The notes beneath the pieces were generated by a model, which was given only the letters and a program-made list of their open reading frames with translations, was not told the origin of the DNA and searched no databases. Source: a virus. From it: a stretch of DNA of 52,473 nt. The stretch is taken from positions 1 through 52,473 of the IMG/VR virus record IMGVR_UViG_3300009597_000016; one strand, 5' to 3'. Made by a program: the position numbers and the translations under genes. Positions 3,690 through 50,302 of the stretch are shown here, piece by piece (the first letter of the stretch is position 1; each line of letters begins with the position of its first letter).

Positions 3690-4252
3690 TCTTCACCATC
3701 GTAGGCTGCGGAGACAGCGCGAAATCATGGACACCCATCGGCACGAGTATCGGATCCAACGACTGCGAGAAGTGGGGAAGAGGAGTCGATCATCTTATAT
3801 TAGCAAATCACCCAGGTAAATTTAAGAATGGAAGACTCAACATCATCAAACGAACGAAAGCGCAAGTTCATACTACATCACGCAGGCTCTGGCAACAAAA
3901 CCTCCCATGTTGTTTGCAGCTTAATCGAGTGGTGTCGTTTAACACACGTTTGCTCAACGGGTTTATCTACACCTCCTCCACAACTCCCATCATGTGCATG
4001 TCGCTGGCGATCCGTATGGGCGCGACTGAGTTGATACTATGGGGAGTAGATATGCTGAATCATCATGCGTACTATCAGGGGAGCAAGTTGGGTAACCGCG
4101 AGATCGGCGTGTATCATAAGTTCTTCCAGGCATGTACAGCGAAAGGAATTAAAGTCTATCTTGGCGCACATGGAACCGCATTCGACAAAACACTACCGCT
4201 ATGGACTACTGTACCATCACTCCCACTCGAGATGACAGACCCCAGTTCCTAG
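3686..4252 (+). CDS. Sialyltransferase/MptE-fold-like protein
   Basis: A Rossmann-like N terminus (IFTIVGCGDSA at the start, IGSNDCEKWG after it) and a later TTPIMCMSLAIRMGATELIL-like strand-helix-strand followed by GVDM resemble the DUF115/MptE and CstII-type sialyltransferase fold, in which a nucleotide-sugar or pterin substrate binds. It opens the glycan-enzyme cluster, coupled to the terminase stop (ATGA). Its last 52 bases overlap the next gene in another frame. The specific reaction cannot be told from sequence. Confidence 0.5.
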   Translation: MIFTIVGCGDSAKSWTPIGTSIGSNDCEKWGRGVDHLILANHPGKFKNGRLNIIKRTKAQVHTTSRRLWQQNLPCCLQLNRVVSFNTRLLNGFIYTSSTTPIMCMSLAIRMGATELILWGVDMLNHHAYYQGSKLGNREIGVYHKFFQACTAKGIKVYLGAHGTAFDKTLPLWTTVPSLPLEMTDPSS

Positions 4253-4827
4253 CGTTCTGTAAACATCAGCTTGATCGAATGAGTGAGGGCAGACCTAACT
4301 TCATTGTCGATTATAAGCCGCGAGGTACATTCCCGGATCTGGTCCCACGCATACAGGTTGGTATTGAACTAGCCAAGGAAGCTGGATGCGAATATATTTT
4401 CATTGTGGAAAACGATGACTATTATCCGATCGATTATCTTAGGACCAAAGTGTTAGACTTCGATTTCTGGGGATGTGAAACCACAACGTATTACAATTTA
4501 AAAACAAGATCGTATGCAAGATACCCGCATAAGAATAGATCTTCACTCTTCTGCACTGGATTTAAGGTGGAAGCTATGCAGGACTTTCATTGGCCTAGCG
4601 ATACATCGGTTTTTCTTGATCTGGAGATCTGGGACTATGCAGTCAGGAAGAGGAAGCGTATCTCGCTGGACCAGCATAACCCGTGCCTTGGCATTAAGCA
4701 TGGCATTGGTATGTGTGGTGGTCGTGGTCACAAGTGGGATATGGTTCACAAGGACAAGGATCTCTCCTACCTCAAGAATACCGTAGATGAAGATGCATTT
4801 GAATTTTATAAAAGTTTGCAACTATGA
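4201..4827 (+). CDS. Glycosyltransferase-like protein (GT-A fold)
   Basis: The protein begins MDYCTITPTRDDR, the first strand and loop typical of GT-A enzymes, and has an acidic metal-site-like motif VENDDYY near residues 72-78. The later FLDLEIWDYA and HGIGMCGGRGH segments are compatible with the acceptor half. It would transfer a sugar from a nucleotide-sugar donor. The 52-base overlap with the previous gene is unusually long but both frames read well. Confidence 0.6.
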   Translation: MDYCTITPTRDDRPQFLAFCKHQLDRMSEGRPNFIVDYKPRGTFPDLVPRIQVGIELAKEAGCEYIFIVENDDYYPIDYLRTKVLDFDFWGCETTTYYNLKTRSYARYPHKNRSSLFCTGFKVEAMQDFHWPSDTSVFLDLEIWDYAVRKRKRISLDQHNPCLGIKHGIGMCGGRGHKWDMVHKDKDLSYLKNTVDEDAFEFYKSLQL

Positions 4828-5731: not shown

Positions 5732-6300
5732 AGCTCTCTGTTCTCATCGCTACTACTGTTGATCGCCGCGAGATGTTCGGTAAGCTCATGGAAGAGTTCG
5801 CCACACAGGCCACCGATGAAGTTCAGATCTTATTCGAAGAGGATGACAAGAAGATGTCCATTGGTCGTAAGCGACAGCTACTCCTTGAACGCGCTGAAGG
5901 CGATTATATCGTATATTTCGATTCGGATGATTTCCCTTACCCTAACTATTTGTCAGAGATCCTCACAGCGCTGGATAGTGGTCCAGACTGTGTGGGGTTT
6001 CTGATACATATGACAACCAATGGGAAGCACCCACAAGTATGCTGTCATTCACTCAGGTTCAAGGCCTGGGCCAAACATGTACATGGTTATGATTATGTAC
6101 GAGGTGTGACACACTTCAATCCAGTTAGACGGGAGCTTGCGTTAAAGATTGGGTTTCCTGATCTTCGGTTCGGGGAAGACAAGATCTACAGTGATCGTAT
6201 CACCAGGATCTGCCGGAAGGAAGTATTCATTAACAAGAAGCTGTTTCATTACAGATATACCAATGCAGTCCCACATCGTCAAAAATACGGAATCAAATGA
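5728..6300 (+). CDS. Family 2 glycosyltransferase
   Basis: The classical GT2 signature is present: LSVLIATTVDRREMF at the N terminus, then IGRKRQLLLERAEGDYIVYF and the metal-binding DSDD (about residues 70-85). I chose the ATG at 5728, which overlaps the previous stop as ATGA, over a GTG seven codons upstream. The 190-aa length covers just the catalytic domain. A conserved GEDKIYSDRI element resembles the GT2 ED motif that holds the catalytic base. Confidence 0.8.
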   Translation: MKLSVLIATTVDRREMFGKLMEEFATQATDEVQILFEEDDKKMSIGRKRQLLLERAEGDYIVYFDSDDFPYPNYLSEILTALDSGPDCVGFLIHMTTNGKHPQVCCHSLRFKAWAKHVHGYDYVRGVTHFNPVRRELALKIGFPDLRFGEDKIYSDRITRICRKEVFINKKLFHYRYTNAVPHRQKYGIK

Positions 6301-6998
6301 ACGCAGCTATAGTCGCATTAATCAGAGGATATAAAGATCAGGATGGGTACAAGACGCTCATTAACCGTAATACAGCGGTTGAACGGTTTTTCGGCGATAA
6401 GTATCCCCTGGTCTTCTTCCACGAAGGCAACATCAAGCAGCGGGATCAGTTGCATATCAAAGGGCAAACACCCACGCTGAACATGTCCTTCGTGGATATC
6501 TCTGATCGCTGGACCGGAGGCTATGAAGGGATGTGCAGATTCTATGCATATGACTTATGGGAGGTATGCCAGTACTACGAATACATCATGCGCATTGACG
6601 AAGATTGTATCCTGCTGGAGCGGGATCGGGATCCGTTTGATAACATCGGTGGTAACGTATACCTGAAGTCGGTCTTCTTCGCCGAGAGTCATAGCGAAAC
6701 CAATGCCACGCTGCCGCAGGAGATTGAACGTATCACCGGCAGGGAGAAGGCTACCTTCTACAACGACAAGTTCGTGTACACTAATGTCAGCCTGAGCAGT
6801 GTTAAGTTCTGGCGGGAGGGAGAAGTAGCCGATGTACTCCAGCTCCTAGCTAAGTCCAAAGAACAGCGCAGGAACAGATGGGGTGACCTTCCGATGTTAG
6901 GATCGCTGTTGAACATCTACGCACCGGATAGGATCGGTACATTGACGGGAATCAGGTACGCTCATATGTCACATGCTAACGTCATTACCTGTGAGTAG
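6297..6998 (+). CDS. GT15-like (mannosyltransferase-type) glycosyltransferase
   Basis: The protein resembles the Ktr/Mnt1 group of alpha-mannosyltransferases: an N-terminal block with DGYKTLINRNTAVERFFGDK, a central YIMRIDEDCIL (metal-site aspartates about residues 100-102), and a C-terminal RWGDLPMLGSL similar to the RWGD-P-H element of GT15. GT15 is best known from fungi, so a phage homologue is noteworthy, but related short forms exist in viruses and bacteria as far as I recall. Family assignment is by motif only. Confidence 0.6.
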   Translation: MNAAIVALIRGYKDQDGYKTLINRNTAVERFFGDKYPLVFFHEGNIKQRDQLHIKGQTPTLNMSFVDISDRWTGGYEGMCRFYAYDLWEVCQYYEYIMRIDEDCILLERDRDPFDNIGGNVYLKSVFFAESHSETNATLPQEIERITGREKATFYNDKFVYTNVSLSSVKFWREGEVADVLQLLAKSKEQRRNRWGDLPMLGSLLNIYAPDRIGTLTGIRYAHMSHANVITCE

Positions 6999-10253: not shown

Positions 10254-10396
10254 ACTTATCAGACGGAGATCCTATCATGGAGCGTGAACTTCGCTGGATG
10301 CCTGTTTATGACTTTAATTTTCGTATTTTAGCACTCAATAAGCATAGGGCCAAGCAGGAGAACTCTCTTGAGTTCGAACCCTTCGGCCTTAAGTGA
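10250..10396 (+). CDS. Small tail-assembly ORF (48 aa alone, or frameshift extension)
   Basis: A GTG overlapping the upstream stop (GTGA) opens 48 codons. The frame continues upstream without a stop to 10073, and residues before the GTG (GEFIREWEESFV) also look like protein, suggesting it is the C-terminal part of a -1 frameshift product. The core (MERELRWMPVYDFNFRIL) resembles short proteins encoded just before tape measure genes. Whether it is made separately or as a fusion cannot be settled from sequence. Confidence 0.55.
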   Translation: MNLSDGDPIMERELRWMPVYDFNFRILALNKHRAKQENSLEFEPFGLK

Positions 10397-35284: not shown

Positions 35285-36694
35285 TTAAAGCAGAACAACA
35301 GAATTGATTTCATTAATGAGCGCTTTCTTATCCTGTTCCATCAACTTCATTATGTCAAACACTTTTTCGCTGAAGCCAGCAAGCGCATAGACATTGTGTT
35401 GTGGGAACTGCATGGATCCGTATCCTTGCAAGTCAAACGAATATACAAAAGGATCAGCCTTCAACTTTTGTTTGTATTGATTAAAAGTTGACACTGGTGA
35501 GTTACCACCCATCCACCCTTGCATATCAGACAGGATTATAATCCGATCATACGCTTTGTTAGCGGTCTGAAAGATTGCATGGAAGTTAGTTCCACCTGAA
35601 GAAAACTTCACCGAGTTTGCGATAGTGATCACTGAATCAGAGGAGTTAACGTTCACGTATTTAGCGTTCTCTTGAAACAGAATCAAATCGCAATCATTGG
35701 ACTTCACCAGCACCGCTGCAAAGAGCGACCCTATCTGCGCTGGCTTGCCATTCATCGAGCCGGACACATCCAGCACCACCAGGGTCCGTCCATCGAATTT
35801 AGGCACATTCGCACAGGCGATATCCACGGCTTGATTTAGGGCCTTTACAGTAGCTCTCACCTCTTGTGAGGAATCCAGCTTGTTAATTTCCTCAAACGCA
35901 GTGGTGAAACGGAAAGGCAGTACCAGTGACTTCCTGATCAGCTTCTCATCAACGAGCATCTCCAATGCTTGATCCAGCACCTCTGGAGCCTGTTCAATGA
36001 TGTTCCGCAGGTTCCGTAACAGGGCGAAGTAGCCGATCTTCCTGGTGAGGATAAGCTCCTTCCACGCATCCGACTTTGCCTCCGCTGCATCCTCAGCCTT
36101 GCCAGCCTCGGATAGCTTGGCCTCCCAGGTATCTTCAGACTTCAGCGTACCCGCTATTAGGGAGGCTAGCGCCTTCGCGTTCTTATCGACTGGCGTTGGG
36201 TGCAGGATGTTCGCTGCGTCCACCAGTGAGAATCCCTTGCCCTCTCCACGGTACTTGGCCAGCTGGTAGCCATCGAACTTGTCGAAAGCTTTAGCCAGAC
36301 CAGCCTTCATCGCGTGAGTCATCTTGCCCTTGGCATAGGACAGGATCTCGGTGATATCGTCAGGCCGGTACACCACGGAGTTATAGAAGCCTTTAGCACA
36401 TGGATTACCCTTGAGGAACCCCCCTAATTTCACTGCCGCTACGTGTGATATGGATCGCATACCAAACTTGGTACGTCCATACACAATGGCCTTGGCCGCA
36501 AATTCAGGATTGATCTTAGGCAAGAGAGACTCTAATCTATCGAAGCCAGTTTCTTCCTTCTGGTAGAACTGATTTTGCGCGAATGAAGTAAGCAGGATGG
36601 AAACGAATTCCAATTCTGGTGTCTGGGAGAAGGCCTCGCCTCCGGCCAGGTTGGTCACCTTGGTAGGTGATTCTTTAACATTGAACTTTGCCAT
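35285..36694 (-). CDS. rsr: Ro60/Rsr ring protein (TROVE domain)
   Basis: Ro60 proteins form a HEAT-repeat ring closed by a von Willebrand A domain; they bind Y RNAs and the ends of misfolded RNAs. Residues about 15-290 show the helical TROVE region (ELEFVSILLTSFAQNQFY, AIVYGRTKFGMRSISHV, AANILHPTPVD). The vWA part begins at FDGRTLVVLDVSGSM with the metal-site DVSGS at residues 309-313, and FSSGGTNF and LSDMQGW supply the other site residues. At 469 aa it is slightly shorter than typical bacterial Rsr. It is preceded by Y-RNA-like units and a terminator on the same strand, which strongly supports the assignment. Confidence 0.93.
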   Translation of the reverse strand: MAKFNVKESPTKVTNLAGGEAFSQTPELEFVSILLTSFAQNQFYQKEETGFDRLESLLPKINPEFAAKAIVYGRTKFGMRSISHVAAVKLGGFLKGNPCAKGFYNSVVYRPDDITEILSYAKGKMTHAMKAGLAKAFDKFDGYQLAKYRGEGKGFSLVDAANILHPTPVDKNAKALASLIAGTLKSEDTWEAKLSEAGKAEDAAEAKSDAWKELILTRKIGYFALLRNLRNIIEQAPEVLDQALEMLVDEKLIRKSLVLPFRFTTAFEEINKLDSSQEVRATVKALNQAVDIACANVPKFDGRTLVVLDVSGSMNGKPAQIGSLFAAVLVKSNDCDLILFQENAKYVNVNSSDSVITIANSVKFSSGGTNFHAIFQTANKAYDRIIILSDMQGWMGGNSPVSTFNQYKQKLKADPFVYSFDLQGYGSMQFPQHNVYALAGFSEKVFDIMKLMEQDKKALINEINSVVLL

Positions 36695-36749: not shown

Positions 36750-36874
36750 TGACAGGAAATACCTCAATCGGAAATTTAGCGCTCTACCATTGAGCTACTG
36801 GGTTTCCCCAGATTGGATTCGAACCAATAACCACTCGATCCACAGTCGAAGTAACCGATTAATCGTCACTGTCA
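36750..36874 (-). ncRNA. Y-RNA-like unit 3 with circularly permuted tRNA-like module
   Basis: Read on the minus strand: outer stem TGACAG (36874-36869) pairs with CTGTCA (36755-36750); TGACGA; inner stem TTAATCGG (36862-36855) pairs with CCGATTGA (36771-36764); then a hairpin with a 7-nt loop, a canonical T arm (ATTGG-TTCGAAT-CCAAT, 36828-36812), a closed 5-bp stem with a GAAA loop (CTGGG-GAAA-CCCAG, 36811-36798), TA, and a canonical D arm (GCTC-AATGGTA-GAGC, 36795-36781). T arm before D arm with the acceptor-like stem capped is a circular permutation of tRNA order, as in tRNA-mimicking YrlA RNAs known from bacteria with Rsr. It lies just upstream of Ro60. Confidence 0.85.
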
Positions 36875-47930: not shown

Positions 47931-47977
47931 GTTTCATGTACTTTTGTGCCTTATCAAAAAATAACTATATTGTAAGC

Positions 47978-48075
47978 GCTGTCCAATTATGAAGAACTTA
48001 AAAACATCCCCACATTATACTTGCCTTTGACCGTCAGGTCCATTGGACAGCCTTGTATTTTGTGGGGGATTTTTT
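47978..48075 (+). ncRNA. H-type pseudoknot RNA with terminal U run
   Basis: GCTGTCCAAT (47978-47987) is a perfect 10-bp complement of ATTGGACAGC (48042-48051). Interleaved with it, CCCCACA (48008-48014) pairs with TGTGGGG (48061-48067). The order A-B-A'-B' makes a pseudoknot or two mutually exclusive folds, and a T6 run follows at 48070-48075. The element fills the gap before the primase gene. A conditional terminator, ending where the B stem forms, is the simplest interpretation; a stand-alone small RNA is possible. Confidence 0.6.
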
Positions 48076-48079
48076 ATTT

Positions 48080-48625
48080 ATGTTCCATGTATACTATCCT
48101 GGTGAGGGAAAGAATGGTTACTACTTACGCTACGATGGCGAAGCAACACTAGAGGACATCATTGATTCCATATGCAATGATCCTGTCAAACCAAAGACAG
48201 AATGTCCCGGTATAATACTCAATAGATTCAAACCGTATGAATCAAGAAACGGTCCAACTATCCGTAATCGTTATGCAGATCTTGAATACACCACAGGATA
48301 CTTCGCTCTTGATGTAGACAATATCGGACCGATGACTAATCTTATACGTAAGATCCTTTTCGGCCTACCCGAGGTTATCGTATCTTGGATATCCTCCTCT
48401 GGAAACGGAGTAAAGGCCATTGGATATAGTCCAAAATTAATCAACCAAACACCGCGCATGTTCAGTATGAAATACAGAATCCTGTGCGGCGAACTTCGAA
48501 TGAAATCAGGGATGCGTATCAATTTCGATCAGGCGATGGGTCGATGCCACCAACCTGTATTTATTAATTCTGATCCTAACGCACTGTATAAAACTAAAAA
48601 ACAAATTTATGACACATTACACTGA
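48080..48625 (+). CDS. Primase (BT4734-like/VirE N-terminal, AEP type)
   Basis: The protein carries FALDVDNI with the D-x-D of archaeo-eukaryotic primases (D78, D80), then VSWISSSGNGVKAIGY, which matches the SGNG-K-I element of BT4734-like N-terminal domains, and GRCHQPVFINSDPNAL near the C terminus. It should make primers at the origin. I chose ATG 48080, immediately after the U run, over 48053, whose extra residues overlap the terminator stem. At 181 aa it is the primase half only. Confidence 0.7.
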   Translation: MFHVYYPGEGKNGYYLRYDGEATLEDIIDSICNDPVKPKTECPGIILNRFKPYESRNGPTIRNRYADLEYTTGYFALDVDNIGPMTNLIRKILFGLPEVIVSWISSSGNGVKAIGYSPKLINQTPRMFSMKYRILCGELRMKSGMRINFDQAMGRCHQPVFINSDPNALYKTKKQIYDTLH

Positions 48626-48806
48626 CACCGCAGAAATCCTGATGAAGGAATACCCAACATTAACTCCTTATGAAGCATTAAGAATCGCTCTTGAAGAAGA
48701 GCGCAACATCATACTTGAGGAAGCTCTGGGTACACGCAATGGACAGATGTCTCCGGTATACCTTGAAGCTATAGGTATGGCACTTGGATTTAAACCACAA
48801 CATTAA
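48609..48806 (+). CDS. Small linker protein between primase and helicase, 65 aa
   Basis: The gene overlaps the primase end by 17 bases and ends in a TAATG overlap with the helicase gene. The helical protein (TDTAEILMKEYPTLTPYEAL, RIALEEERNIILEEALG) could be a docking domain joining the split primase and helicase. No family recognised. Confidence 0.6.
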   Translation: MTHYTDTAEILMKEYPTLTPYEALRIALEEERNIILEEALGTRNGQMSPVYLEAIGMALGFKPQH

Positions 48807-50302
48807 TGAAAGCACACAATATAAACCCACCTAAGAAACACTCCGGTAATCACACCCACATCTTAAACTTCGTTAAGCGATGTATTGAGATGGGAGATGA
48901 TGACTACGAGAAAGCTGCGTGGCGTATCCATGATGGAGAATGGATGTCACCTGATTCCAACACTGGAGGAGACTTCAACAAACTTAAGAAAGACTGTAAA
49001 ACCTGCTGGAAGAAAGCCTTATCAGAACTGGAGGCTGGATCCGCTCCACCCACCAAGAAGCTCAGAAACTTCGAGAAGCTTCGTACGGCTAAAGACTGGG
49101 TAGATCTCAGGGTAGTATACGATACATTTCTCGGGCAATATTTATGTGAGGGTATCCCAACTAATCCGGCCGCTGAATATGATCTCTACAACTCCCAGGC
49201 CGATGAAAATTCATTCATTGAGAAGCCCCACTTCATTAATGCATTTGAAGTAGACCGTATGCCAAGAGTGTCCGCTATTAAAACATGGGCAGAGAACTTA
49301 CCTAAGCGGTCAGGTACTAAAGAAATCGACAAGTTATGCTCTTTCATCCCAGCCATTGATCCTCTACAAGCAAACATGTTTATGAAGGGGTGGCTGATTC
49401 GCGCCTACATTCAAGCAGTGAATCCGACTGGGCTGGATGGTAATTCTATTGTCAATCGCTGGATGCTTATCCTACATCAGCAGAAACAGGACTCCGGCAA
49501 GAGTGGATTCTTCCGCTGGTTATCTCCCTATCCAGCTTGGGTCAAGGAGAATGGGCTGGAAGATAACAAAGATGGATATATCGCACTGGGCAGATATTTA
49601 TTCGTGCTTGATGATGAACTTGGGGGACTCACCAGGGTAACACAACACGAACGTATCAAAGCGATGATTAGTACATCTAAGGTAGACGTTCGCCCCCCCT
49701 ATGCAAGAGTCGATGTCAAACTAGATCGTACTGCTTCCTTCTGTGGATCCACTAACAACACTGATGTTTTTCCTTCAGCAGAGGGAACCACCAGGTTCTT
49801 ATTACTTCCTCTCAAGGAGGATGTATTCAAGTGGGAAGAATACACCAAGCAAGTAGACCGTACCAAGCTGTGGGCTGAAGTCAAGGCTCTTGTGGCCACC
49901 GATTGGCTTAAGATCAACACACCAGCCATCATCGAGTATCGTACTGCTACTAACATTGGCTATGCGCGTGATGATCAGGAATCGTATGTGGTGGAACGTT
50001 TCATCCGGGCCTCAGAGGTTGATGACGGCAAAGTCTTACGTGCCGGCGACATCATGCGTGAGATGTGTGACACGGAATATGGATACGCTAATCTTAATAT
50101 TGTGAGGCTTGGTCAAGCACTTAGAAAGATATTTGGAGAACGGGTTTTCGGGCACAGTCCAGATGGCAAGGAATGTAGGGGTTATAAGGTGACTATTATC
50201 CCTGCCAATCCTGCCCCTACTGTCAGTAAAAAAGACGTTTCAGTGGCAGAAATAAAAAACAAAAGTTTTAAGGCCAAACGAAAAAAGCTCTCGCAACGGT
50301 AG
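48806..50302 (+). CDS. VirE-type (D5-like) replicative helicase
   Basis: Residues 10-85 resemble a PriCT-like domain (DDDYEKAAWRIHDGEWMSPD). The AAA+ core has a degenerate Walker A (QQKQDSGKSGF, K232), Walker B FVLDDE (D269-E271) and a sensor-like GSTNNTDVFPSAEGTTRF, as in the virulence-associated protein E family. It would unwind DNA with the upstream primase. The C-terminal 90 residues look like a winged-helix domain with a basic tail (KRKKLSQR). Confidence 0.8.
   Translation: MKAHNINPPKKHSGNHTHILNFVKRCIEMGDDDYEKAAWRIHDGEWMSPDSNTGGDFNKLKKDCKTCWKKALSELEAGSAPPTKKLRNFEKLRTAKDWVDLRVVYDTFLGQYLCEGIPTNPAAEYDLYNSQADENSFIEKPHFINAFEVDRMPRVSAIKTWAENLPKRSGTKEIDKLCSFIPAIDPLQANMFMKGWLIRAYIQAVNPTGLDGNSIVNRWMLILHQQKQDSGKSGFFRWLSPYPAWVKENGLEDNKDGYIALGRYLFVLDDELGGLTRVTQHERIKAMISTSKVDVRPPYARVDVKLDRTASFCGSTNNTDVFPSAEGTTRFLLLPLKEDVFKWEEYTKQVDRTKLWAEVKALVATDWLKINTPAIIEYRTATNIGYARDDQESYVVERFIRASEVDDGKVLRAGDIMREMCDTEYGYANLNIVRLGQALRKIFGERVFGHSPDGKECRGYKVTIIPANPAPTVSKKDVSVAEIKNKSFKAKRKKLSQR

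Follow-up and report, generated by a model that had tools for sequence, protein, structure and literature searches.

We tentatively read an RNA element upstream of a predicted phage primase gene as a promoter-proximal 5′ leader of an early operon, one of a recurrent class, that most likely acts as a conditional attenuator. The element lies in a 52,473-nt stretch of viral DNA (IMG/VR record IMGVR_UViG_3300009597_000016, positions 1 to 52,473), referred to below as the window. Comparison with other phages indicates that its pseudoknot is real, conserved as a design and not specific to primase genes. Because this design recurs with different letters before varied genes, it looks like a family of phage gene-control RNAs.

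Interlocked helices precede the primase operon of the window

Helix A pairs GCTGTCCAAT (47978-47987) with ATTGGACAGC (48042-48051) over 10 bp, and helix B pairs CCCCACA (48008-48014) with TGTGGGG (48061-48067). The helices stand in A-B-A′-B′ order and are followed by T6, just as the initial annotation had described them; every coordinate and sequence that it gave was exact. Helix A can be extended by UAAG (47973-47976) with CUUG (48052-48055) across a bulged C, and helix B by a U48007-G48068 pair. The leader and the genes behind it, all on the plus strand, consist of the following parts.

47939-47946 (+): putative promoter box, a Bacteroidota-type -7 box TACTTTTG (TAnnTTTG), 31 nt 5′ of A
47951-48079 (+): predicted leader RNA, its start placed from the promoter box and its end from ATG 48080
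47978-47987 (+): A5, 5′ arm of helix A; optional extension at 47973-47976 with C47977 bulged
47988-48006 (+): loop L1, 19 nt, A-rich
48007-48014 (+): B5, 5′ arm of helix B
48017-48023 (+): 5′ side of inner stem P3, AUAC then G48023, in the constrained and the free minimum-energy fold
48029-48040 (+): small hairpin GACC-gtca-GGTC, immediately 5′ of A3
48042-48051 (+): A3, 3′ arm of helix A, within the apical domain of the B/P3 hairpin
48052-48058 (+): 3′ side of P3 (C48052, GUAU 48055-48058) in the constrained fold
48061-48068 (+): B3, 3′ arm of helix B
48070-48079 (+): U-tract TTTTTTATTT, adjoining the start codon; T6 is 48070-48075
48080-48625 (+): first gene, a BT4734-like N-terminal domain protein of the VirE_N/primase type (PF08800, E 8.5e-7)
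48806-50302 (+): VapE-like helicase (PF05272, E 8.2e-23), downstream in the same operon

Taken alone, the interlocked pair in the window is only modestly unusual. Of 40 versions of the window shuffled by a first-order Markov model, 6 contained an interlocked 10-bp and 7-bp pair (mean 0.175 per shuffle), and the fold z-score of the window RNA is -2.3. The finding exceeds chance because the design recurs in related phages and covaries there. The same holds for the putative promoter: TAnnTTTG occurs in the window at chance frequency (34 seen, 35.4 expected), and the promoter is inferred from an exact box 7-31 nt 5′ of A in 13 of the 22 curated members described below, together with the enrichment of box plus pseudoknot over shuffles.

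When transcription reaches about position 48052, helix A is predicted by the folding model to form with high probability. After B′ is made, a model without pseudoknots gives -27.9 kcal/mol for the nested B hairpin, compared to -20.5 for A alone. With pseudoknot energy taken as the computed helix energies plus literature penalties, the pseudoknotted and nested folds of the window RNA are predicted to be about equal in energy, within error. Helix A shares no base with the core of helix B and overlaps only inner pairs of the nested fold. Since the hairpin closed by B carries A′ in its apical loop, both helices could coexist. Two alternatives had been offered in the initial annotation: a pseudoknot, which covariation in relatives supports, and competition between helix A and the terminator helix, which is not supported, as the two share no base. 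For the latter reason the leader does not resemble a classical antiterminator switch; the window leader has no antiterminator helix sharing bases with the terminator stem. The compensatory changes that keep both helices of an apical-loop/H-type pseudoknot were found in relatives.

The start of the first gene at ATG 48080 agrees with its alignment to the VirE_N proteins of the isolated phages FPSV-S8 and phi18:2. Single-sequence searches of IMG/VR and of phage and plasmid collections gave no relative of the primase protein, and those with the helicase, run against IMG/VR and species genomes, were likewise negative; to judge from these searches, the primase module of the window phage is very divergent. 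Alignment searches with the primase and helicase gave matches of at most 31-39% identity, which did not carry the window leader, and terminase relatives of the window phage exist but lack its replication module. No direct homologue of the window leader was found. The exact letters of helix A matched at four places elsewhere, all in unrelated contexts and at a number estimated to be near chance, and these were rejected as homologues.

The design recurs with unrelated sequences in Bacteroidota phages

A first scan for A-B-A′-B′ pairing with a U-run, in DNA retrieved from relatives, found a like layout in other phages. The design was seen again, with unrelated letters, in Bacteroidota phage contigs, giving 22 curated members and four more, one of them in the isolated Cellulophaga phage phi10:1. 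Members include L121, L109, L108/L035, L107, L016, L023, L025 and L029, as well as L132, L057, L238, L226, L227, L234 and L152, among others. In phi10:1 the element is at about 10259-10345, before the gp024-gp026 replication operon with a TOPRIM primase/helicase; under the attenuation reading, its transcript is predicted to start just after the upstream sequence TATATTTA.

Descriptors were used for counting. They were refined on their own finds with U-rich tails preselected, so descriptor counts and tail scores are partly circular; the new loci and covarying pairs are independent of this. With an energy descriptor tied to the start codon, five loci were clearly beyond the best shuffle value of -32.8 (L121, -38.8; L109, -38.7; L035, -36.7; L016, -36.3; window, -36.0). 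When an exact TAnnTTTG 8-60 nt upstream was included, 7 loci were at or below -28 (0.0 per shuffle) and 11 at or below -22 (0.7 per shuffle). Applied to 1.56 Mb of phage DNA, an architecture descriptor yielded 34 unique sites with scores at or below -30, compared to 2 in an equal shuffle; at or below -34 there were 11 compared to 0, and at or below -28 with the exact promoter box 9 compared to 0. Some descriptor sites fall in coding or low-complexity DNA, and not all are true members. The signal in the host control, 0.4 Mb of a Chryseobacterium chromosome, was near background (3 sites at or below -30, 1 in the shuffle; 0 with the box). A regular expression for the loop motif of a sub-family was also tried and rejected as too lax for counting. 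No convincing member turned up in the isolated phages phi46:1, phi18:1 and FPSV-S1 or in the portion of BS-TP1 that was scanned.

One contig, IMGVR_UViG_3300048849_000134 (G030), holds at least five pseudoknot leaders behind copies of one repeated promoter. Many operons of this contig, which includes L107-L109, are preceded by copies of a promoter-like sequence that reads approximately TTTTTATTATCGTTAATAA and is followed by a TAnnTTTG-like box; several of these operons have pseudoknot leaders and others have short plain leaders. A search of IMG/VR viral contigs with the G030 promoter pattern, which was too strict, found no match.

The architecture shared by the 22 curated members can be summarized as follows. 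A hairpin that contains internal loops and the inner stem P3 is closed by helix B (6-12 bp) and followed by the U-tract. The apical part carries A3, which pairs with the upstream A5 over 6-16 bp. L1, from A5 to the hairpin, is 15-29 nt; L3 is 5-19 nt, and 5-8 nt in half of the members (11/22). The ATG follows helix B by 9-12 nt in 10 of 21 members; spacing elsewhere ranges up to 27 nt and is wider still in phi10:1 (about 37 nt) and L171 (82 nt). L023, L132, L171 and L238 form a sub-group with a common internal loop like GGAU/UGAA, which is GAAU/UGAA in phi10:1, and L016 has a small hairpin at the place matching the GACC/GGUC hairpin of the window.

Helices A and B covary in related phages

Three homologous pairs of leaders allow the helices to be compared directly. 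Between L152 and L154, helix A changes from UGUGCG/CGCACA to UUCGGG/CCCGAA. Three of its six pairs thereby differ at both bases, and B, P3 and the greater part of L1 and L3 are unchanged. Helix A of L116 and L120 likewise differs at both bases in three of its six pairs, with B unchanged. For L226 and L227 the changes are in helix B, one double and three one-sided, and every pair is kept. Sliding the partner by 1-3 columns abolished the covariation signal in all three homologous pairs. Shuffles reached the observed value in 63/500 (L152/L154), 65/500 (L116/L120) and 255/500 (L226/L227) cases, a weak control with two sequences each, which lowers the weight of any one pair of leaders. Covariation in related phages had been proposed as a check on the initial annotation; no homologue of the window leader itself was found for this purpose, but both helices covary in related-phage leaders of like design.

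The L116/L120 leaders open a conserved non-coding stretch of about 280 nt (L116 about 4015-4300, minus strand; L120 about 6320-6590, minus strand; possibly also L115, minus strand). It begins with a pseudoknot of like design and runs past the U-tract into a second domain, where there are apparent compensatory changes from GACGC/GCGUC to GAUGU/ACAUC. The stretch had no Rfam match above background.

Leaders precede replication, recombination and homing-type genes

Products downstream of the members are diverse. They include an SF2 helicase (L025), an SNF2-like/methylase fusion (L132), an HTH regulator (L109) and ERF recombinases behind L226 (Pfam) and L227 (by eye), and a replication-type protein common to L152 and phi10:1 gp025 was recognized by eye. 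Endonucleases were GIY-YIG/NUMOD3 (L035), NUMOD4-HNH (L057), HNH_3 (L016) and, by eye, HNH (L121, L023, L238); products behind the remaining members are unassigned. Given these endonucleases, helicases, ERF proteins and the HTH regulator, a reading as primase-helicase control is too narrow. What stands from the initial annotation is that the primase operon is preceded by a leader of the pseudoknot type whose U-tract resembles that of a terminator.

Six of the 22 curated members (L121, L016, L023, L057, L238 and L035) precede homing-type endonucleases of the HNH or GIY-YIG type, an arrangement suggesting that the two might travel together as a single cassette. In a separate observation, a close relative (L008, 4201-4740) has an HNH-type gene between two structural genes, where the window (6267-6283) has none.

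The U-tract is distinct from the initiation region

T makes up 0.59 of the last 12 nt before the ATG in 10 pseudoknot leaders, selected on pairing regardless of U content, compared to 0.26 in 129 promoter leaders without a pseudoknot; a U-rich tract is thus specific to leaders with the pseudoknot. The tail score is 4.03 for the window and averages 4.37 over the 22 members, which were selected for U-rich tails, compared to 2.23 for random sequence; 21 of 22 members score at least 3.5. In phi10:1, L226, L132 and L057 an A-rich initiation region is separate from the U-tract and 3′ of it, which makes the U-tract a distinct element. Since it is not a usual initiation region, a terminator-like role, and hence attenuation, is favoured over a purely translational element.

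As in an intrinsic terminator, the window has a GC-rich stem with a U-rich tract within 0-2 nt (48007-48014/48061-48068, then A, then T6). The usual short loop of 3-8 nt is absent, as the B arms of the window are 46 nt apart; a simple terminator scan missed the element because it allowed only such loops. When P3 is counted, many members have a shorter apical loop with A3 inside.

Candidate mechanisms

Under conditional attenuation, RNA would start just after the TAnnTTTG box, and A5 would pair with A3 once A3 is transcribed. P3 and B would close next, followed by the U-tract, and the clamped hairpin plus U-tract would stop or pause RNA polymerase just 5′ of the gene. Read-through, by way of kinetics, a host or phage factor or changed A pairing, would then allow the early replication or homing gene to be expressed. 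Several observations argue against this mechanism. Helix A leaves B unsequestered and no antiterminator is evident in the sequence; the nested and pseudoknotted window folds are comparable in energy; the 9-12 nt spacing from B to the ATG in 10 of 21 members is not needed by a terminator; and conserved non-coding sequence runs beyond the U-tract in L116/L120.

The clustered spacing speaks for the main rival, a translational gate, in which pseudoknot folding, or binding by the operon product or a phage or host protein, controls ribosome loading. Nucleic-acid-binding proteins are common among the downstream products (primase, helicase, ERF, HNH), and the diverged leader RNAs of T4 and RB69 are repressed by either gp32 (PMC535899). 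However, the spacing is as wide as 27 nt in other members and wider again in phi10:1 (about 37 nt) and L171 (82 nt), and initiation regions in these phages are not usually U-tracts. A single common autoregulator is unlikely because the downstream products are unrelated. We regard translational gating as a possible but rather unlikely explanation.

Among the 13 members with an exact box, A5 starts 7-15 nt behind it in 10. This position would also suit an mRNA stabiliser, with A5 near the transcript 5′ end tucked into a stable hairpin loop that slows early-mRNA decay. This is improbable, as it leaves the specificity of the U-tract unexplained and the box-to-A distance is 31 nt in the window. A promoter box, compact fold and terminator-like tail, and the L116/L120/L115 elements with no gene start right after them, could instead describe a self-contained small RNA of about 115-130 nt, terminating at the U-tract and acting in trans, with leakage as the only route to expression of the downstream gene. 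The element nearly always abuts a start codon, and a shared trans target is not expected because helix letters are not conserved between phages; we consider this reading very improbable. Chance inverted repeats or DNA-level operators are scarcely credible: pairs of like size do occur in 6/40 window shuffles and the box count in the window is at chance, but recurrence is far above shuffles and host DNA, compensatory changes occur with flanks kept, and a DNA operator would keep its letters, which the members do not.

We put forward with still more caution that the leaders could form a phage-wide RNA regulon of Bacteroidota phages, in which many early operons of a genome open with a like-shaped, 5′-end-clamped terminator hairpin whose letters turn over and which is recognized either by RNA polymerase or by a single shared factor. 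Bacteroidota are a dominant phylum in gut and water and, to our knowledge, little is known of early-gene timing in their phages. A structure-defined leader family common to replication, recombination and homing-endonuclease genes offers a concrete, testable control point, and one member is in a cultivated phage, phi10:1 of Cellulophaga baltica.

Comparison with known systems

The leader exemplifies an RNA with conserved shape and sequence turnover, so sequence-based RNA searches miss it. Rfam, which has no such leader, gave no gathering-level match in the window or in seven member loci; a relaxed threshold gave only weak chance matches. The literature search found no description of such a leader, an absence that is not proof, and the class is apparently undescribed.

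Other identities were considered and rejected. HDV-like, group I intron and tmRNA readings do not fit the order of elements and have no Rfam match, and ARAGORN found no tmRNA-type gene in the window and six loci. A Y RNA reading was rejected because the Ro60-like gene and YrlA-like RNA of this phage lie at 36.8 kb, not at the leader. There, a YrlA-type Y RNA (36758-36852, minus strand; RF02553, E 8e-8, 44.3 bits, under the gathering score, 69) is directly upstream, on the same strand, of a TROVE/Ro60-like protein gene (35285-36694; Pfam TROVE 3.6e-16, PHROG 850), making a phage-borne Ro60-Y RNA pair. In an unrelated phage contig (L002, 1961-2180), the palindrome GCTGTCCAATTGGACAGC, exact or slightly varied, is scattered in several copies.

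Three systems come closest in kind: the gene 32 pseudoknot of T4, put of HK022 and STAXI. None has this architecture. The gene 32 leaders of T4 and RB69, an autogenous translational operator, have diverged letters and similar structure (PMC535899) and, as here, join a phage replication gene to a 5′-leader pseudoknot. The present leader differs in that its 5′ segment base-pairs within the apical loop of a longer hairpin, in having a U-tract behind it, and in standing before many genes that are unrelated to one another. The antitermination RNA put of HK022 is a promoter-proximal structured RNA of early operons with more than one copy per genome (PMC9378689), a likeness that extends to the inferred position of our leader. 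However, put consists of two stem-loops without such a pseudoknot or a U-tract of its own and acts on terminators kilobases away, and its two-stem-loop fold is absent from the window leader. STAXI (RF01728) pseudoknots occur near single-strand-binding-protein, topoisomerase and antirestriction genes (PMC2864571); they are tandem repeats of Enterobacteriales, often with UUCG loops, whereas the leader here is a single unit with no Rfam match. With intrinsic terminators and attenuators the leader shares a GC-rich stem directly before a U-tract, a promoter upstream and a gene downstream. It differs from them in having no stem-overlapping antiterminator and a long apical domain (46 nt in the window) that is clamped from upstream.
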